Assembly: GCA_009869945.1 (NCBI GenBank)
Contig: WIXG01000109.1
Span: 1 to 64,000 of the forward strand
Reading direction: 5' to 3'
Origin: Mesaphorura yosii
Taxonomy: Eukaryota; Arthropoda; Collembola; Poduromorpha; Tullbergiidae
DNA: 64,000 bases
A model generated the notes under the pieces. That model saw only the letters and a program-made list of their open reading frames with translations. It made no database searches and was not told where the DNA came from. Below, one piece after another: positions 30,733-49,500 of this stretch. Positions within the stretch are counted from its first letter, which is position 1; each line of letters begins with the position of its first letter. The translations under genes were made by a program, and so were the position numbers.

Positions 30733-31284
30733 ATGCAGTCAGCAGCAATTTTAGTGGTGCTAACAATATTTAGCTTCCTCTATGCCGTTTCTTCCTCGCC
30801 ACTGCCAGTAAGTGGATCAGTTTTATAATCTTTACGGTTTCGTGCACCTAGCAGTAATTTCTGTAATGATTTTAGGACCCAATGCAGGAGAACGCCATTG
30901 TGTCCAGTGTGAATGGTGACATCAGCCAGCGAATGACACGCCAGCTTCACTATTTTGATCCGCCGCCATTTTATCAGTATGACGTAAGTCTTTCGATATT
31001 TAATAATCCTTAATACTCCAAATACATGAGAGTGCCGTTCTCCTTACTAGAATGTGAATGGTGGCGGTAAAATTCACAACTGCTCCAGGGAAGGGAGACT
31101 CCTCTCCTGTCGCCCCTTCGGCCGCTACTTCCTGGTCAAGCGGTCCACGCCATCACTGCAGATACCTGAAAATAGCGCAAGGAGATCCTACAAAAGTCAA
31201 AGTGCACGAAAACATCGTACTCGGGATGAGATCAGCAGTCACAACCACGGTCAAAGTCAGAGGGAGATCAGACAAGGAGTATGA
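30733..31284 (+). CDS. small secreted protein, last exon frame uncertain
   Basis: Exons join(30733..30807, 30876..30983, 31051..31284) start with a clear signal peptide (MQSAAILVVLTIFSFLYAVS), then DPMQENAIVSSVNG and a Pro/Tyr stretch (FDPPPFYQYD). Splice sites around exons 1 and 2 are strong and phase 0. In exon 3 the frame fixed by the acceptor reads NVNGGGKIHNCSREGRLLSC, then becomes basic and low-complexity to the stop at 31284 (138 residues). From about 31150 a second frame, open to 31312, reads like real protein (KVKVHENIVLGMRSAV, ending HHDDCTP). A frameshift, indel or unseen splice may therefore lie between 31140 and 31190. No family is recognised. Confidence 0.55.
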
Positions 31285-35035: not shown

Positions 35036-38000
35036 ATGGTGGCGCTCATCACCGTCGCTGCCGTACGCTCACGCGGTGTTGCGCTGCACCTGTGGACCTT
35101 TTGCCTGCTTTTACCACTGATCAACGCCCAAAGCGGGTAAGTAAATCACTCCTCTTATCAGTCAACGCTGAAATTGTTGGAACAGGACGCATAAGTGAAT
35201 GCGCATGGTCCAGATTTGTGTACGCCAGTCAAATACAAGCTTATAAGCGGCCGAATCAGAAGACACGACTTGGGTGTGACGGTAAACATGTATTTTCGCA
35301 ACAGCACTTTTGCATTGCAAATTGCATAAGAGATATGCAAGGCTGAAGGGTTGGAGCGTAGGTGTTCTAATGACCCACCTGCGCCCGTGCAATAGGAGAG
35401 CGACGGCGATTACGATTATGAATTTTGAAAGTGAAATGAAGTCAGCATGGCCATAACATGACACGATGGATGCGTGGTCAATGGGTCTCGAGTCGCAAGT
35501 CCCAGAACACTTCCTAGCTATGCCACATTTATTAATGACCACCATCTTTATTTGGTCATGGACGGCTCATTGCATTATCTCTGATTACGATTACGAGGTT
35601 GATTACACTCACCCGAGCAAACTGCAAGCTATGCGAAGCCATGTAATTTGAATTTAATATCAAAACCACGTATTAAGCCATAACTAGATCACTGAGATCT
35701 CATTTTCATTCGAAGCCTAGCCTGAAATCGAACTCGGCCAGATGCAGGAGGTGTAATCAAATTAAGATAAAAGTGTCGGAGCAGTCGGCAATTATCTGAA
35801 ATCAAGAAATCATGTTTCAAGCACGCTTTGTAATGCAAATACAAGAAGCAAGAAGATGTCGTGATTCAATAAGCGAATACTCACTAATCGTAATCATAGT
35901 CGTGACAAGATTTGATGTTACACTTGGCTTTTACCAGGCGATCTTGCAATTTCTCTCATTCACCAGTCAGCACGATATGATAGATTTATGAACCCATTGA
36001 TACCGACTAATGACAACGGCAAGGAGTTTGCGATATGTGGTTAATTCATGTGTCCTGTTCCTATTGCAGAATTTATACCGTCGTCGCGCCACGAACGATA
36101 CGCCCAAATTCACCGTACAACGTAGGAGTAAGCATAGACTCAAACTCACCAGTCAAAGTCAACGTTTACCTGACCGCGACGCTGAGCACGCGCGGACTGT
36201 CCACAAATGAGGAAAGAATTGTCGAGCCGGGCACCAGTCTGACAATCACGTTGACTGTAAGTTAATTTTGATAGGGCGAGTTGGGCGAATGAGCCAGCAT
36301 GTCAATGAGTCAAGGTTTTATCTAACGAATTCATGCGTAATGCGTAGGTGGGCGACTTAATCGACGGCGGCACGTACAACCTCACCGTACGAGGAACGGG
36401 AGGCTTGAACTTTGTCAATTCAACTGAGCTTGTGTACAACCCGAAATCAGCGTCCGTCATCATTCAAACTGACAAACCAATTTACAAACCTGGCGAAATC
36501 GTCAAGTTTCGAGTGCTGCTGCTGGATCGACTCCTCCGGCCGAACGGTCCTGGACCAATCACAATTTTCTTCAAAGACGGGCAGGGCAATGTCATCAACC
36601 AATGGCAGAACGCCATTGTGCAGAATGGAATCTTCTCATCCGAGCTCCCTCTGAGCGCGGAACCCAACTTGGGAGACTGGTCGATCAATGTAGGATTCAA
36701 GAACCAAAACGAAGTGCACTTATTCACGGTGGCACAGTACATCCTCCCAAAATTCAACGTGGAGTTGGAATTGCCAGCATTTGCGACTTTCAGTGACTCC
36801 AAAATTGTGGCACGCGTTCGTGCAAATTACGTGTACGGACAGCCCGTACGTGGCGAAGCTGTTGTCTCAGCGTACCCTTCAATTCTTTCGACGTACATCC
36901 AGCCAGTGTTCACAGGCATCAGTCGGAAAACAGTCCCGATTGACGGCGTGGCCGACGTTGAGTTTGATTTGACCAAAGAATTAGGGCTCACAGACGACTA
37001 TCAACGACCTGTCACCGTCGAGGTCATGATCACAGAAACGTTGACTGGTCGAATGCAGAATGCAAGCAAAGGAATCACGGTCCACAAATACCCGTACAAA
37101 ATGGAAATTATTCGCGGGCAGGAATCATTCAAGCCCGGACTCCCGTACTCGATCACGATCAAGATTGCGACTCAAGATGATGTCCCGATTTCTGATCCGA
37201 GCACCAAAGCCTTGGAAGTCAAACACGGATTCTCGTACAACCACGAAGAGTACCGCACGAGCACGTACAGTATCCCGTCAAATGGGCTCGTGACACTGAC
37301 GTTCAATTCTCCTCAGAATAATTCCATCGTGGCACTTGGAATTGAGGCAACTTACAAGGATCTTACCGAATGGTTCCCGACGGTGCAGCGAGCAATTTCG
37401 CCAAGCAACACCTACATCCAAGCCACCGCTCTGTCTTCGAATATTAAGGTAAGTTATGTCACAAAAACTCGTAGTTAAGATTTCTAACAGAAAGCTTTAA
37501 TCACGACGCGACACGGCTCCGCAGGTCAACGATGTCATCGACGTACGCGTTCGATCCACAACTCCATTCATGTCAATCAACTACGATCTGCTTGGCCGTG
37601 GTGATTTAATCTTGTCACAAAAGATGAACTTACGAAGCCCCGAATTGGAGACGACACTGCGTATTCAAATGTCACCGAGAACAGCACCAAAAGCCACCCT
37701 TATCGTATTCATTGTACACGAAAGTGAAGTGGTTGCAGACTCACTAGAATTTGAAGTCGGTGGGTTTGTGGAGAACTTCCTTAACATTAATGTGCAGACA
37801 GAAAGTGAGCCAGGGAAAGAAATCAATGTGCTCCTGTCAAGCAAACCGAATTCGGTGATTGGACTGAAGGGAATTGACCAGTCGGTGCTGCTGCTGAGGG
37901 AAGATAAGGATATCAACCTGAATTCGATCGAGACGGAGCTTAATTCATGGAACTACGACAAGGGAGATAATCGAGGCAGGTTTCGGCGGTCGCTGTTCAA

Positions 38001-41000
38001 CCCAATTGGAGCGACCACAGCGGCACAAGTCTTCGAGGTGGGTTCAGAAGCTCTGTCGCTGCCGCTCTGCTGAAGTGCGCATTTATTGTACATTTTTTCC
38101 ACCTGATTCGCAGGATTCTGGTGTGGTAATCATGACCAATGCACTTGTCCATCGTCAGCCGCCGGCCGGTAAACCAATGTTTAGTTTTTGCCTTGTACAT
38201 TGAACGCTACTTACGGTTGTGGTGGGTGAAGGTTTGGTTTGTAGGGTTGGAAGTGGGAAGATTTTCTGGGTTGCAAGACCGAATAGATAAATACGGGCAT
38301 CCAATGACGCCCATGCAATTTTGGGTGATGGTGTTGTAAATACGACGTTTGACTCTGACAAATTTAGTCCGACTCGATTTATTTAAAAATGAGTGTGGAA
38401 GTTGATAAACCTACATTAAATTTTGTGTAGTATTCTACCGTGCCAATTTCTTGGACGATGAGTCAAGTAATCCCGTGGCAGACGCTGAGACCTCCAACCC
38501 ATTTTCTCAAGATGGTGGTGCTCCCAGAACGAGGAAATTTTTCCCGGAGACTTTTATTTGGGAACAAGTAACCGCTGGGTAAACAAAAACACAATTAATG
38601 CTTTTAAGTAACCAGAATTAATCAGACGATGCGCAGTAGAGCTAATTTAGACTACGACAAGGACAAAGTAATTTTTAGATTTGCATGATTTGCCACTTCT
38701 CGATCACTGATCACGTATCATTTTATCTGCGTTCGTTTTAAGGCGTCTTCGCAATCTGCCCTTTCTAACTCTTCTAACTGCTAAACAACAATATTTTCGT
38801 CTTCCACCTCTTTCTTTCACTTGGTCTTTCTGATCTCCTCCGGTCTTTAGGTGTCCCAGACTCTGAACAAGCACTTCCACGGCCAATTCGTCCATTATCA
38901 AAACTCATTTACGGTCAGTCGCCCGACACTTCGTCACTGAGGCCGGATATTGGACCTTCGATTCCGTACACAGGACCGACCAGACCGCCAAATGCTGGCC
39001 CATATGCTTTCTCACGTGTACCTCCTTCCAAATTAAAGTTCCCAGCGATCTTCTTTAGCTCTACGAAACACATTCCTGCTTCCACATGGCTCTTCGATAA
39101 TACCACCATTGGGTACTTTCTTGCATTTTCTTTTCTTTTCTGTATGGTCGGACTTTTTGCATTGGCAACATTATGTACGTTTCCGTGAATTCGTCGTTCT
39201 TGGCGTTCCTATTCTTCTGTTTGATTTAATTTATTTATGATATCATGCCGCTGAGTTGGAATATAGCGAGTGTAATTAGGAAAGGAGAAAAGCATAAGAT
39301 TGTATTGAAGACGAACCCGTTTTTATCTCCCAGTTTTTAAATTATCATTTCTACCAGGTATGACGGCAAGACTCTGCTGAAACGAACGGTACCCGACACA
39401 ATCACATCATGGATAATCTCTGGATTCGCCCTGGACTCCGTATACGGGCTTGGAGTCATGGAACGCCCGCACAAGCTGCGTGTATTCCGACCATTCTTCA
39501 TATCCTTGAATATTCCGTACTCTGTTGTGAAAGGAGAAGCCATTGGTGTTCAAGTGCTGGTCCACAATTACATGGACAGAGATATCACGGCAGATGTGAC
39601 TTTGGACAACTCAAACAACCAATTTAGATTCACAAACGATGAAAATGAAATTGAGACAAGTAAGTAAAAGTTTCTACCATGCCAGAAGTGTTTAGCAGGA
39701 TGACGGTTAAAGGTTCCTCCATTTTGAAGGACTGGAATTGTTCAAAACTGAACGCGTCTCGGTCAGCAAAAATTCTGTTGCTTCAATTATCTTCCTCATC
39801 ACTCCAACTAAACTTGGCCCCGTCGACCTCAACTTGAAGGCTTCGACTAGAAATGCCGGCGACGCAATCAGCAGGCCGCTTTTGGTGAAACCACCTGGAC
39901 AGAATCAGAAACTCAACAAAGCCGCATTAATCGACTTGCGGACCACGCGCTCCGCGTCTGTGAATCTGACAACGAAATTCCCACCGAGACGAGTGGAAGA
40001 TTCGGATTCGGTGAAGATTTCCATTGTTGGCGACATTCTGGGACCGGCTATCACTAATCTGGCAAGTTTGTTGGGTGAGTCGGTGACTGGCAGCAAAATG
40101 GCAAGCAATTTTAGATTGCTAATCCAATATTTATATCCACAGAACTGCCGACTGGTTGCGGTGAACAGAACCTGGTTCATTTTGTCCCTGATATCATTGT
40201 TTTGGAATACTTACAAGTAAGTGGGATAATTTTCATTTCATTCCGCGTCCTGCTGCGTTAATCTGCATGACTGCATGGTAGTTAAAGAGATCGGATCGTG
40301 CATCTGCTACACGCATGGTAATAATGACACTTGTCAATACTCTTCACTTGATTAACCTGCTTCGTACTTGTTTTCGTTACTGTACACTGTATACAGAAGT
40401 TAATGAGTTCACTCTCATTTTACATAGCACGCAGCACACAGCTGCAGTTCAGGTTCTAATTAAAATGCTGTAAACCCAAACACATAATGCGAAATGAACG
40501 GATATGCATTATTTATTATGCCATTAAGCCGGCCCGTGCTACATGCCGCTAAATCTTGTTATGTTAATTAGAACCGACTTACTAACTTCATTTTGTCTTT
40601 ATTTTTGTGTGGTTGTCCTTTGCGACCGCTCAGACGACCAGACAAATCAACGAAGGCGTTCGACAAAAGGCACTCAAGTACCTGGAAACTGGCTATCAGC
40701 GCGAGCTGTCCTTTAAACATGATGATGGATCGTTCTCGGCGTTCGGGAAGGCAGACAGCAGTGGATCTACGTTCTTAACTGCATTTGTGGCCCGTGCATT
40801 CAATGCAGCCAGGAAACACATTTTCATCGAAAAAGGTGTCGTTTGAAATTTCTTAAATGTGAGGTGTAATACAATAGCATGAAACCAGTCGTGTAAACTT
40901 TACATTCATTACAGATGTGATTGAAAAGGCGATGGAATGGCTAATCACGAAACAGAATCGTGATGGGAGTTTCATGGAGGCTGGGAAATTGTTTGACACT

Positions 41001-42624
41001 GGAATCCAGGGCGGTGTGTCAAGTGATATCAGCCTCACCGCGTACGTGTCGCTGGCGTTCGCAGAAGCCAGCAAGGACCCGAGTTTGTCAATCAGCGGTT
41101 CGGCGAGCTTCTCGTCAGCTATGAACCTGGCTCTCGATTACCTTGGAAGGAATTTGGGCTCGTTGGATGACCCGTACACGCTGTCAGTCATTGCCTACGC
41201 CCTGCAAGTTACAAATCATCCATTGAAGGACCAAGCTTTCAATCTGCTCGAAAGACAGGCGAAAAGTCACGGTAAGAGAGTATCGAGCTTTTTCTCAATG
41301 CATATACCATTAGCTGACAAGTCACAAACACATTGAATTTGAATTCTCATTCCAGATGATCTCGGTCAAAAGTATTGGGAAAGACCAAAGACAGGTATTG
41401 ACGAAAAGAATCCATGGACCACGGACTACACCAAGCCAATCAATGTTGAGACGACTGCGTATGCGCTCTTGACATATGTGAGCAAGAATTTAGTCGGTAC
41501 GTGTATTGAGAACTGGCAAAACTTCGGGTGAGAGTTAGAAACTAATCCTAGCAATTTTCTGCACAGGAGACGCGTTGCCCGTACTTCGTTGGCTGCTGGC
41601 GCAAAGAAACGAGAAGGGTGGCTTCATCTCCACCCAAGACACTGTGGTTGGCCTCACGGCGTTGTCGAAATTCGCCGGAACAATGCAGTCCGGCCGAACA
41701 GATATGCAGTTGGAAATCACTCATGACGGTGGGAAGACTGTTAGTACGCAGAATTTCCAGCTGAATTCCAACAATGCGATCGTCATGCAAGAAATCATGG
41801 TTCGCACTGCGCAATTTCAATTGAAACTTCGCTTGAGACATGAGAATTGCCTCTGATCCATGCTTTTTTGTACTACAGCTTCCGTCGACAACAACCTGGG
41901 TTAACATCAACGCTGTGGGTACTGGTGTCGGGCTCGTGCAACTTTCTTGGAGCTACAACCTCAACGTGACTGGTTCATGGCCTCTGTTCAGTGTTGACCC
42001 GCAGATCGAAACGCGGACATCGGACAAGTATCAGTACACAGTCTCTGTGTGTACTCGGACCATTGGTGAGGAGTCAAATATGGCAGTTATGGAACTGAAT
42101 GTCCCCAGCGGGTACATTCTAAACACGGACGGACTACTCAACTTGTTACACAACCCAAAGGTAAGACGATCACATTTCAGAGCTTCCTAAATGAGACGCG
42201 TACCACACGTTATGATATTTTGTCTCGTTATCTCCAGATTAAGAAGTACGAGCTTGACGATTCTGGTTCCAAAGTGAATGTGTACTTTGAGTCACTAAAT
42301 CGTACTGAAGTTTGTCCCACCGTGCAAGCATACCGCGTGTTCCCCGTGGCCAAGCAAATACCGACGTACGTCTCAGTTTACGACTACTACGACAATTCAA
42401 GACGAGCGCGACAATTTTACTCACCGCCTACGGCAAAGTTATGTGATATCTGCGAAGCCGCCCAGTGCACGGACGAGTGTCGCGTTGCCAGGCAGCAAGA
42501 TGACGACAGTCGAAGCAGAAGACCGGGCAGTTTATCGGGTGCCAATAGTTTAGGCCTCCTTCATGTTAATTTTGTGATGATCGTCAGTTTCTTTACGTTA
42601 CTTACGACTAAATTGCTGAACTAA
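35036..42624 (+). CDS. thioester-containing protein (TEP/CD109-like)
   Basis: Fifteen constitutive-path exons: join(35036..35136, 36070..36256, 36348..37448, 37525..38037, 38114..38168, bait exon, 39358..39659, 39730..40074, 40143..40216, 40634..40835, 40915..41271, 41356..41496, 41567..41799, 41879..42160, 42238..42624). With bait exon 38431..38578 it has 1,475 residues; with 38851..39112, 1,513. Features in order: signal peptide ending in LLLPLINA; macroglobulin domains (YTVVAPRTIRPNSPYNV, SVIIQTDKPIYKPGEIVKF); RFRR at about 615; bait region from 653; alpha-2-macroglobulin signature RPFFISLNIPYSVVKGE; intact thioester TGCGEQN at about 921-927; alpha-helical TED; receptor-binding-like domain; Cys-rich CDICEAAQCTDEC; and a hydrophobic GPI-type tail. 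Such proteins opsonise microbes or trap proteases; the tail suggests a CD109-like membrane-anchored form. The first intron is 933 bp. Confidence 0.95.
35137..36069. other. first intron of the thioester-protein gene
   Basis: It joins the signal-peptide exon to the first macroglobulin exon in phase 2. Short frames on both strands (for example 35466-35651 plus, 35162-35545 minus) show no family signature. Confidence 0.7.
38431..38578 (+). other. alternative bait exon a of the thioester protein
   Basis: 148 bp, entered in phase 1 and left in phase 2. It encodes VFYRANFLDDESS, an acidic stretch, then RKFFPETFIWEQVTAG. The last segment matches the conserved FPETWLW-type motif that closes the bait region in TEP and alpha-2-macroglobulin proteins. 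Confidence 0.88.
38851..39112 (+). other. alternative bait exon b of the thioester protein
   Basis: 262 bp with the same phase 1 entry and phase 2 exit as exon a. It encodes a Pro/Ser-rich bait (RPIRPLSKLIYGQSPDTSSL, IPYTGPTRPPNAGPYAF) ending in KHIPASTWLFDNTTIG, which occupies the place of the FPETFIWEQVTAG segment of exon a. Strong TTTAG acceptor and GTACTT donor. Confidence 0.85.
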
Positions 42625-43574: not shown

Positions 43575-46500
43575 TCACTTCAGATCCTTCATTTGAAGTT
43601 TAAAGGTGTATGGATCATAAAATCCCGCGACGTAATACGTGTGTTTTGGTGCCTTCTTTCTATTGTCAATGCTACTGACGCCTTTGCCACCAGTCTTCCA
43701 GTTTGGTTGAAGACGTGTGCCGTACTTGTGCTTGAATTCCCCGTACGGGAGAACGCTGCATTTCTTGGCTATTGTCTGGACATCGTTTTCATCAATGTGC
43801 GGAGACTCGAACAAGGCTCCCTGTAGTGAAAATTTGGACGGTCGTGAATTTTTTGAGCTGCGAAAAAACAAAGCAATTGAGCCCTGAGAAACACTTACCG
43901 GATACTTTACCACAATTCGCTTCTTCGTCTTAATCTCCTCTGGATGGTAGTACCAACGAACGTTCACAATCTTCTGACCTTTCTTTTCCCAGAATCTCTC
44001 AATTCGCCCTAGAGCATGAAGGTTACGAATAAATTGGGTGCTTTGATAAACCTCTGACAAATGACCTTTTAAATTGTCCGCATTTCATACCGATAAAAGG
44101 CCGATCATTTCCGTTTGAGATAAACAGAGCCGAGTCTCCAACGTTAATAATTTCGTCACCTCTCTGAATCCCATGGAAGAATTCTTTGTGTCTGTTTTTC
44201 TTTGTTTTGGGAATTTTGTATCCGAGACCAGTCCAAGTCCAATACTTCATCTTTGTGCGGTAAGTGTCATTGAAGTTCTTATCGTACTCATCCACCTCGT
44301 CATCATCGTCAGCCTCCTCCTCCTGCAATTTCGCTACTTTGGCACAGTACGGTTCACCACAATCTCTTTCCTCGTGGTCCCCGGTGCAGCCACCTTGACT
44401 TCCATTTGCAGACGAATTTCGTCGCTTGCGATGTTTCTTTTCGAGAGTCAGAAGTGGATTCGGGTCGTATTCTTTGGAGAAAGCACAAATTACGGGCTAA
44501 TACTCTGAACATCTTAATACATTTATGAACTGCACGAACATGGAAGAAGTTATTTACCTGCTACTGGATGGTTCGGGGCCAGAAGTCGAATCTCGTCAAT
44601 TTTGATGACGCCCGTATCGCCATCGTCAAACTCGACAGGAACCAAATCGCTAATTGTATCATAATCAGTGGAAACCTTCCCAGGGTAAAGACCCGTGTAC
44701 TGTGGTGACCAGTAGGCACACCTACGGAGATAACCAGTTTAATTTAACTTCAGCATTTAGGGCAAGAAGGCTTTGCTCGCATAAGAACACAGATATTACT
44801 TACAGTCTGAGACCATGTGGAAGTTGTGACGACCTCCATGGCTTTGCTTCTCGTATACATTTCTATCAAATCAAAATCGTTAGCTGATAGTCCACTGCTT
44901 GTACTCAAAACGAAATTTCAAATCTAATTAACTTACAGATATAACTTCCTCCGCGGAGAAAATAATATGTGGTGGTGCTCCTCTTTCATTGTCCAATGTT
45001 ACCCCGTACACGTCAGGCGGTTGGAGTGCATTCAGTTTTCCGGTGTAGAAAAGTCCCTCAATTTCGGTAAGAATTCTCATTTCGTCGACCATGTCCTCCA
45101 CTCCCGAGATGACAACATTGTCATCCCAAATTGCTTCCTTCGACTTATCCGCACCAGCTGATTCTGCGTCGGGCTTCACTTTTCTGCTGAAAACGTTCAT
45201 GTCAATCGAAGTCTTTCGTCCTTTAACCTTTTCCGCAGCTTTCACCGCCGCGACATTGGACCGTGCTGATTTTCTTGTTGCGCGCCGAACTTCTTCTTCG
45301 GAGTCATCGTCGGAAGATGATCTCGGGATTGACTCGACTTTCAAGTACGGCTTGAAGTCAGAATCCTTACTGGATTTGCGTTTTGGTGGACTTGTTGATC
45401 GCCGGAATTTCCTTCTATCAAAACTGGATTCTTTCAGCAGTCGCATTCTCTTCACTGGCTCTGCTGAAGGAGATCGACTGTCCCGCTCGCTGCTGCTGCT
45501 CAATTTAGATGGTTTGAGAAGCAATTTCCTCCTTGGAGCCGGAGCACTCGGTGATTTTGGCCATTCAGAATCGTCTTCGCCGCCGGCGAGGGGTTCTTGC
45601 TTGATTGGAGCAGCGTCCATTTTCACAGCTGACACAATGTGAGTTGGATTCGTGATAGTTGTCCAAGCTGAAGACGAGGACTCATTGCTGCTGCAAGGAT
45701 CAATGGAGGATGGAGTCTGAGTCCGTGGAATGTGTGACCCCCACTGGGGTAAAAACGGCAATGTTCGAGCTACAACTTCATTTTTAAGATTAACATTTCC
45801 CACAGCTGGTGATATCTCAGTTGAACGATCATCAATTAAAGCAGTGTTTGTAGACTTCTTACTAGCTGCAGCCGCCGGAGTTGGAATTTTCTGTTTCTTG
45901 ATTGCAGTGAGTTTGTCGTCAGAAACGTTCTGATTCATGTCTTTCTTCAATTTGGGAGTTGTTGACTTGCTGTCTTCAGAATTTTTCTCCGTCTTTTCGC
46001 TCTTAAAGTGCTTCTTCGCAATTTCCGCCAGGGCAGACTTCCTGCTTGCCAAAATTTCCTTCCTTTTTTCACCGCTTGTTGCTGTTTTGAGATCATCTTT
46101 TCCAGAGCGCTTAATCTTGACAAGCTTTCTCCCTTCTTTAGCTGGCTTTATTAACGTGGAGAATTTCTTCTCTAAAAATCCTGGCTTTGTCGGGTGTTTC
46201 TTTATGCCTGCGGTTCCCGACCTTGTCGCGGAAAGCCCTGCGTTCTTTTTCAATTGAGTACTGTGAAGGATACCCTTTTCAGGCCTGTTCGCGAAGGGTT
46301 CGACGAGTTCAGGTTTCGTGTCTTCAAATCCATCGAAATCATAAATTGAGGCAGATGAATTTGAATTTGCATTCATAGAAGAATCGAGCTTCGCAAAAAG
46401 TGAAAACTTCTTGTCATCGAATCCTGAGTTTGGGGGCACGGTTCCAGTTTTGTTGGGCATGAACTTCTTTGTTTCATCCTGCTTCCTTTGCAAGGAACTA

Positions 46501-49500
46501 TTAGAAATTTTGGACTTGGGTTCCTTCTTCACCTGTGGCACCTTGCCAAATTTTATGGGTTTGAGCTTGCCCTGTCCACTCGACTCTGGTTGTAATTTTT
46601 TCTTGCGCATTTGTTTTGATTCAGCTCGGCCCACGGTATCAAGTTTTTCTTTCTTTACCTTTGCTTTTACCTTCCCCTCTTCCTGCTGCTTGCTCGTCTT
46701 CTTTTTCTTTTGAACATCCTGTCCTCGTGGCACCACAAGTGGAATTTTGAGTTCAAAGGGGCCTTGCGCATTAACGTTATTACTAGTTTGACTGGATGAA
46801 GTTGCAATTAAAGCTTTAGTGCTGCTGCTGTACGACGGCGAGCCACGTTCGTCATGCTTGCGTGCATTTGGACTTGTTTCTTGCGCTTTTGTTCCTGTAC
46901 ACAAGTTGTTTTCCTCAGCTGCAGCTGCGGCTGCTACCGCTGCATAGAGAGATTCGGTGCTATGCCTTCGTAGGGCATCCTCACCAAGTCGTTGTTGCTG
47001 CTGTTCGGAGTGGTGACAGTGGTGAGTGTGAGTATGATTGCTTTCACTAACCATGATATCAAATCTTCGCGGATGCGTCGGGCTCACATTTCTGCTGCTG
47101 ATAAATGGACCAGCTTCTTCCGTGGCAGCAGCGACGGTTGCCAATAAATTCAAATGGTTATCTTCTGGTGAAATTACTATTGTTGGCAAACTATTGAATA
47201 CCATTGTGCTCGCACTCTCAATACTGCCCGAGCTATGGCTTGAGAGCCGCCTTTCGATCGGAGTCGGAGTTTGTGGCGAATTGAATACTGGATGAAATTG
47301 TTGATACTGAAGGTTTGGTGAAATTGGTGATGAGGTTGGAGCTGAGAATGATTTGGAATCGTACACGCTTCTTTGACGGTCATTATTGACATTCAATGGG
47401 TTTACATTCATAGGTTGTGCACGCTCAAAGGTACTCGCCAGTTGCATACTACCGCTATTATCACAAGAAATAGGTGACGATGTAATTTTGTGCTTCGGTG
47501 AAGACGTGCTCCCTTCAGGTTGGCTTGGCTTGCCGCTAACAATGTCATGAGAAGAATTTCCAGCGTTTTGATCATGCTTTGTGAGTCGATTCCAACCGAA
47601 TTCAAAGTCTTTTGCAAAATTAATACTTCCTTCTGCTCTGCCACCGCCGATGTTGACGCTGATGCTTCTATCGCTCTCATTACCAACAAAACTGGGAGCA
47701 GGAGCGTGTTTCTTTGATAATTTGGTGTTGGGACCCTTTCTGTTACTCTTCTTGCTCTCTACCGGGTTGTTATTGATCGGGAAATACTTTTCTGATTTCT
47801 CCTTAATACTACTATTTGTGTTATTCCTACTTTTATTAATTTCTTGAGTATCTTTACTCGCTTTCCTGCCGCTACCGCCGACGCCTTGCTCTTTGGCTTC
47901 GCGTTTCTTCGCTTTTGAAATCAGATCAAATTGATGATCAATACCCGTGCTTTTCTTTGGCTTCGCCTCGCTTTTACTTCCTTTCTCTTTATGAGCTTTC
48001 TTGGGCAATTGATCTTTCTGTCTTGGCTTCTTCGGTCTTTGATCGTCTGCAATTTGTGGCTTTTTCTTGCCTTCAGACTTTTTCGTGCTCTTAATTTCCT
48101 TTCCCTTCGTGTTTAAACTCATAAACGCAGAATTTGACTCAGGTACAACGGATTTCATTTCGACATCACAATTCGTTACTGTTTCATCTTTCCTCACAAC
48201 CAAATCTTTCTCCACCTTGAGATTTACGGCCTCTTCCTCGCCTTCGTCTTGAGAATAATTTGCATTTAGGCTTTCGCTGCTGCTGGACAGCAAGGGCAAA
48301 GACTCTTCAGCTCGTTTTTCGATCAGACTCTCCAACCTTCTAAAGTCGTGCTTGTAATTTGGCATGGTTGGACTACTCAGCCGACTTCTTTTCTGCATGT
48401 CATCATCCGTTTCTTCATCTCTGCCCTCCTCAATATCGTCCAGTGATGAGATCGTGGAAGATTTCTTACGGCTATTCACAACTAAAGGTATCGGTGTAAG
48501 CTTCCCATCCACAAAACCATCGTCTGATCTCCAACTGCCGCTGCTGTCTTTGCCGGGCACGAACGTCGAGCTAAACGGAGAGCTGAAGGCCGGGAAATGT
48601 TTTGATGTCGGGTTCGGTGTTACGCATTTGCGGTTCAGCAGACTTTGGAAACTGGAATCGTGGATAGTAATTGGCGAGGGTGTTGCTGAGCTGAGACTCC
48701 TTGGTGAGAGAGTTGCTGTTGATGACGCGGTCGTCATCATATGCTGCTGAATCAGATGCGCGGGTGGTTGATACTGATGAGCTGCAGGAGGTGGAATTAG
48801 CTGCTGCTGCTGCTGATAATGTTGGTACAACTCAGCAGGCCAGAGCGAATGGTGTGAATACAGACTTTGTGCACTCGTTGACGAAGAAGAGTGAGCCGGT
48901 AAAGGTGTTGGAATGTTTATCTTAGGATTGCTACTGCTGTTTTGAGGAATTGGGGTTCTGATTCCGTTTCCAGAAAGAAGTTGCCGCTGGGCCAACTCTA
49001 GGGGATCCTGATCCCGATGATCCCGCCTTTGATGGTGCTGGCGGAGCAATTGCTCGTACTGAAGTAATGAATCCGCTGGGTAGCCAGCATACATGTATGA
49101 AGATATATTGTAACCGTACGAATGACTTAATTGAAGTTGCATCGTCTGATGCATAGATAGTTGCTGATGCTGCAAGTAAGCCGCGGCTGCAGCGTAATCT
49201 GGTTAAAATGGAAAAAGCATGCATTTAGTGGATAAATTGGACGTGCGTCTGATTGGGTAGCGATTTAACGATGGAATCCGAAAATACAAGCGTAATGAAT
49301 TCGGTTTCTTACCTTGAGGCACAATAAGTTGCGATGATGGCCACGAATCACGATAAGGACTATTATTATTGTTGAGACTTCTGAAGCCATCACCACTAGC
49401 ACTAAATCTTTCACTGACACTAATACCACTAGCGTTGCTATTATTGTTTTGCACAACACCAAGTTTTTCTTTTGCAGCAGGTGCACTGCTGCTGCTTTTA

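Follow-up and report, generated by a model that had tools for sequence, protein, structure and literature searches.

Introduction

Several thioester-containing proteins (TEPs) vary their bait or cleavage region by alternative exons. According to the accessible text of PMC7016707, such exons are present in BgTEP2 and BgCD109 of Biomphalaria and in BgA2M; for BgCD109 eight variants were predicted and four were observed as transcripts, while BgTEP2 carries twelve mutually exclusive exons with conserved C-terminal ends. The same text cites five isoforms of Drosophila Tep2 made via the alternative bait exon 5, seven isoforms of Chlamys farreri CfTEP built with six mutually exclusive exons, and six forms of a shrimp A2M, and it records that MCR genes are known from molluscs too. 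Fly Tep2 was scored as having mutually exclusive exons from RNA-seq in the available part of PMC11765297, and PMC2685406 lists a reference whose title names bait splice variants of a soft tick. The available portion of PMC4195910 contains nothing on bait splicing, and that of PMC5969219 contains neither 'bait' nor 'alternative splic'. In Anopheles gambiae TEP1 (4d94, 2pn5), MG6 is split by a protease-sensitive region and cleavage there precedes thioester activation, as described in the available part of PMC3464232.

Here we describe a TEP gene with two alternative exons, a and b, in a stretch of 64,000 nucleotides from Mesaphorura yosii (contig WIXG01000109.1, positions 1 to 64,000; hereafter the window). 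As in Drosophila Tep2, alternative exons would swap the bait of a single TEP gene, although Tep2 has five alternatives and this gene two; the likeness described here is one of arrangement. Chlamys farreri CfTEP and Biomphalaria BgTEP2 and BgCD109 also have alternative exons at the proteolytic region; CfTEP has six and BgTEP2 twelve, with transcripts seen, whereas the gene here has two predicted from genomic sequence. Equal phases, the position at the bait and conserved C-terminal ends are all present, and the gene is predicted to be a TEP with mutually exclusive bait exons. Since this kind is already published, the gene adds a member to a known arrangement and does not constitute a new one. 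It extends the set of animal genes whose complement-like product would have its protease trigger varied by splicing instead of by gene duplication. Since it has just two such exons, the part played by each bait should be simpler to test here than in the snail gene with its twelve.

Results and discussion

Gene model and domain content

We rebuilt the gene model and found the TEP gene complete at 35036-42624 of the window (+ strand, as for all its features below). It comprises 14 constitutive exons plus exon a or exon b, with 14 introns per transcript, all GT-AG. The a-only model encodes 1475 aa and the b-only model 1513 aa, both open from the ATG to the natural stop.

Exon 1 (35036..35136) holds the start codon and, by hydropathy, a signal-peptide-like hydrophobic stretch. 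It is followed by exon 2 (36070..36256), exon 3 with Pfam MG2, MG3 and MG4 (36348..37448), exon 4 with most of Pfam A2M_BRD (37525..38037), covering MG5 and the start of MG6, and the constitutive exon 5 (38114..38168), which is 55 nt long and ends in phase 1. The exon next after the alternative pair matches Pfam A2M (39358..39659). Further downstream are a constitutive exon (39730..40074), the thioester exon (40143..40216) and two constitutive exons of the thioester domain, both with Pfam support (40634..40835, with TED_complement, and 40915..41271). Three more constitutive exons (41356..41496, 41567..41799 and 41879..42160), the middle one with a weak donor by splice score (ATG/GTTCGC), precede the last exon (42238..42624), which encodes the end of the receptor-binding domain (Pfam A2M_recep), a cysteine-rich end and the stop. 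The thioester motif is intact, reading LPTGCGEQ at 40145-40168, with its GCGEQ core at 40154..40168.

Above the Pfam cut-offs, isoform b matches MG2, MG3, MG4, A2M_BRD, A2M, TED_complement and A2M_recep in this order. The domain order together with GCGEQ identifies the predicted product as a thioester-containing protein of the A2M superfamily. It is not of the complement C3/C4/C5 type, as a Pfam search of the 1513-aa isoform gave no anaphylatoxin or C345C match at E 0.001. Nor is it an MCR, because the thioester cysteine is present and LDLa had no match in that isoform at the same threshold.

The top PDB match of isoform a was human CD109 (E 2.3e-199, residues 36-1428), followed by mosquito TEP1. 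Human CD109 (8s3o, 9fx2) is therefore the best solved relative of isoform a, and its bait end resembles that of exon a, whereas exon b aligns to it over the last 17 residues only. CD109 is GPI-anchored. The C-terminal tail of the window gene product (42550..42621) is hydrophobic and GPI-signal-like as judged by hydropathy only. Since this tail is common to both isoforms, anchoring is not what differs between them. The sequence-only reading called the isoforms 'secreted or anchored', wording that does not tell them apart, since the N- and C-terminal ends are identical in both.

Exons a and b and their splice sites

Exon a (38431..38578, 148 nt) encodes bait a and ends in RKFFPETFIWEQVTAG, and exon b (38851..39112, 262 nt) encodes bait b and ends in KHIPASTWLFDNTTIG. 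Exon a is supported by the gene model, a PDB match, the codon score and the bait-end profile, and exon b by the gene model, the codon score, the bait-end profile and alignment. The sizes and phases claimed earlier were reproduced with exact GT-AG junctions: the constitutive donor lies between 38168 and 38169, the acceptors at 38431, 38851 and 39358 and the donors at 38578 and 39112, and for both exons the entry phase is 1 and the exit phase 2. The bait-end segments (38529..38578 in a and 39063..39112 in b) had been called comparable. The ends quoted were correct, and over 17 residues their likeness exceeds that of shuffles (p 0.0005, 20,000 shuffles).

The frame shift predicted for transcripts with both exons or neither is also real. 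With both, the frame is lost shortly past exon a (VTAG-CPRL-stop), and with neither a stop follows PPA-GMTARLC. Both stops are upstream of the thioester exon, with at least 8 junctions remaining. An early stop with many junctions downstream is the usual setting for nonsense-mediated decay.

The acceptor of exon a is weak (-1.5): of the gene's 396 other AG sites, 38% score at least as high. For exon b, 12% of the other AG sites (n=396) score as high as its acceptor, and 16% of 432 other GT sites as high as its donor. At 38860, 9 nt further on, exon b has another in-frame acceptor, and because it outscores 38851 (5.0 vs 2.3) the first three residues of the exon are uncertain. We considered acceptor weakness as a mark of alternative exons. 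In a leave-one-out comparison the acceptor of a scored below 12 of 13 constitutive acceptors, but that of b (2.3) exceeded 5 of the 13, and the mark was therefore dropped.

Evidence that exon b is coding

Exon a is easily recognised: its end, TRKFFPETFIWEQVTAG, resembles the bait end in four paralogs from the same genome and in CD109 (RKHFPETWIW in the PDB search with isoform a). Since exon b is more diverged, we put it to dedicated tests. Its in-frame codon score was equalled by 0.15% of 667 noncoding windows and that of exon a by 0.67% of 747, with control windows that overlap and come from the same sequence used to train the noncoding model. Among coding windows, b falls in the lowest 3% and a in the lowest 12%. 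In the constant part downstream of the bait, GC at third positions is 0.55, higher than in exon a (0.46) or exon b (0.42). One reverse frame of exon b scores slightly above the forward one (0.066 vs 0.057) but has two stops.

The final 17 residues of exon b, flush with its donor, rank top among its 72 17-mers against a bait-end profile that combines human CD109 with the four paralogs and omits the window gene; one of 5839 control 17-mers equals this score. Among open 17-mers in the three forward frames of 38169-39357, the six best bait-like ends are led by a (238) and b (71), followed by one scoring 36 at 38921, inside exon b in another frame. In a PDB search, the isoform b fragment matched TEP1 (E 2.5e-23) and CD109 (1.3e-22), and the end of exon b is within both alignments. 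STWLFDNTTIG, which spans the b junction, aligns with ESWLWKNVSIG of Anopheles gambiae TEP1, sequon included, and TKHIPASTW of exon b aligns with RKHFPETW of CD109 with one gap. The match of isoform a to TEP1 starts at the end of exon a (residue 685).

Properties of the two baits

Bait a has 50 residues, among them 8 D/E and 4 K/R, none of which precedes a proline. In the 88 residues of bait b there are 16 P and 18 S+T, and 4 of its 9 K/R precede a proline. The earlier descriptions 'acidic' for a and 'Pro/Ser-rich' for b are thus accurate. Isoform b carries eight sequons and isoform a seven; the NTT sequon found in isoform b only (39099..39107, alignment and pattern search) aligns with NVS of mosquito TEP1. 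Where L008, L009, L011 and CD109 read FPETW, L010 FPEAW and exon a FPETF, exon b reads IPASTW.

A furin-type motif, RFRR, was found by pattern search in the constant exon 4 (37978..37989), upstream of the alternative exons, in a position that could allow cleavage of the chain before the alternative bait. By eye, RFRR is absent at the equivalent place in paralogs L008-L012, in which the short stretch is lacking or different. A second match to the furin-type pattern, RSRR, lies near the C-terminus.

Each alternative exon ends in the segment where MG6 resumes past the bait. We put the probability at about 85% that the gene encodes a TEP/CD109-like protein with two alternative protease-sensitive regions, each carried together with the MG6 strand that follows. 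In such a gene, the spliceosome would place one exon, a or b, in each transcript, and transcripts with both or neither would stop ahead of the thioester exon and be lost to nonsense-mediated decay. A protease would cleave either bait a, short and acidic with R/K sites that lack a following proline, or bait b, long and proline-rich with several R-P bonds and one extra N-glycosylation sequon. Cleavage of the bait would ready the thioester domain for reaction, so exon choice would set the triggering proteases. That baits a and b would differ in their choice of protease is a natural inference from these compositions. The gene anatomy gives good support to the central claim of one gene with two bait regions, predicted to be used singly in the manner of fly Tep2, and the available part of PMC7016707 confirms the precedent.

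The two activation segments might also differ in kind, a being of the FPETW type (FPETF) like CD109 and the paralogs, and b lacking it and having a sequon at the TEP1 position. Exon choice may then alter the behaviour of the cut protein, for example through an N-glycan beside the cut. We give this proposal little credence, and the contrast is weakened because the b fragment matches TEP1 and CD109 nearly equally and the end of a is also within the TEP1 match.

Alternative explanations

We asked whether exon b could be a chance open stretch within an intron. Its splice sites are moderate, and the region holds 54 phase-compatible open AG..GT stretches of at least 30 nt. We counted such stretches in the 1,189-nt region and in a 14,404 nt control, requiring an acceptor of at least -1.6 and a donor of at least 2.9; the test is post hoc because these cut-offs were set from exons a and b. 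At 148 nt or longer the control had 4, giving 0.33 expected in the region, where 3 were seen (a and the two acceptor forms of b), and at 262 nt or longer the control had none and the region one. When the cut-offs were lifted and nested stretches counted separately, the control had 58 of at least 148 nt (4.79 expected, 16 seen in the region) and 3 of at least 262 nt (0.25 expected, 7 seen). No control stretch was thus as long as exon b with equal splice scores, and a bait end in exact register is rare. A chance origin of exon b is unlikely, and we regard it as a very improbable account. It could instead be that exon a is the sole working bait and exon b a relic, either seldom used or a former alternative exon in decay. 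IPASTW in the place of the FPETW-type motif, the weak donor and a codon score low for coding sequence would all suit a relic, but exon b keeps 86 stop-free codons (chance 0.0095 for a given frame), and its STWLFDNTTIG can still be aligned to TEP1. We find this improbable.

It had also been claimed that exactly one exon can be used. This holds for the main splice sites and fails for cryptic ones, which would let parts of both exons combine and more than two forms arise. Four donors within exon a preserve the frame into b; the best, 38466 (2.9, about that of the b donor), would join 12 residues of a in frame to b, and the other three score 0 or less. Within exon b, acceptors 38942 (-3.1), 38984 (0.7) and 39059 (-5.3) keep the frame after a, and 38984 outscores the acceptor of exon a itself. 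The tandem acceptor 38851/38860 would by itself yield two b forms. The scores of 38942 and 39059 are poor, however, and the whole of a joined to part of b would duplicate the MG6 segment, so we think additional forms of this sort unlikely. Because cryptic sites keep the frame, the frame does not act as the chooser of the exon and penalises the two simple errors only; it would make wrong products short-lived rather than select an exon.

As for a choosing mechanism, the intron between exons a and b is 272 nt, in our judgement too long for simple steric exclusion. Intron-intron RNA pairing among the three introns did not go beyond 200 dinucleotide shuffles (z -0.91, -0.07 and +1.65). A recent duplication of an a unit into b was considered and rejected, as the local DNA alignment score was matched by 95% of 300 shuffles. 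With pairing and a/b DNA similarity both at shuffle level, a docking mechanism and a recent duplication are unsupported. The 37900-39700 interval contains 18 direct two-copy repeat families and 21 inverted pairs of 10-20 nt, counts that come without a shuffle comparison. A third alternative exon was not seen among the best 25 of the 54 candidates of at least 30 nt, a search in which a diverged one could be missed.

TEP paralogs elsewhere in the genome

Searching with the exon that follows the bait gave seven loci, the window gene and six others. In four paralogs (L008-L011, on contigs C45, C488, C743 and C1116), a single long open frame (1230 to 1546 aa) holds most of the coding sequence, bait included, with no intron at the bait for a swap. 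One species thus offers two routes to bait diversity for comparison. In a tree of six rows (isoform a and L008-L012, with L013 excluded; midpoint root for drawing only), the four cluster (96/94) and the window gene stands apart from them, while the MCR-like C212 lies at the opposite end; the long branches of L012 and L011 make their own placements unsure. The pattern would follow from a single loss of the bait introns in the ancestor of the four paralogs, or from their gain in the window gene.

L011 (C1116) reads GRGEEN in place of the thioester motif GCGEQN, and no thioester bond is therefore expected. The MCR-like L012 (C212) has a cysteine-rich insert at the bait, presumably LDLa-like, and ESAENN where the thioester motif would be.

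Neighbouring genes in the window

Upstream of the TEP gene, at about 30733-31284 (+), we noted by eye an apparent small secreted protein with a signal-like start and short exons. On the opposite strand, open frames at 43578-49202 (-) include a BAH domain (43578-44084) and a TNRC18-like SH3 match (44931-49202), and these frames are perhaps one gene.
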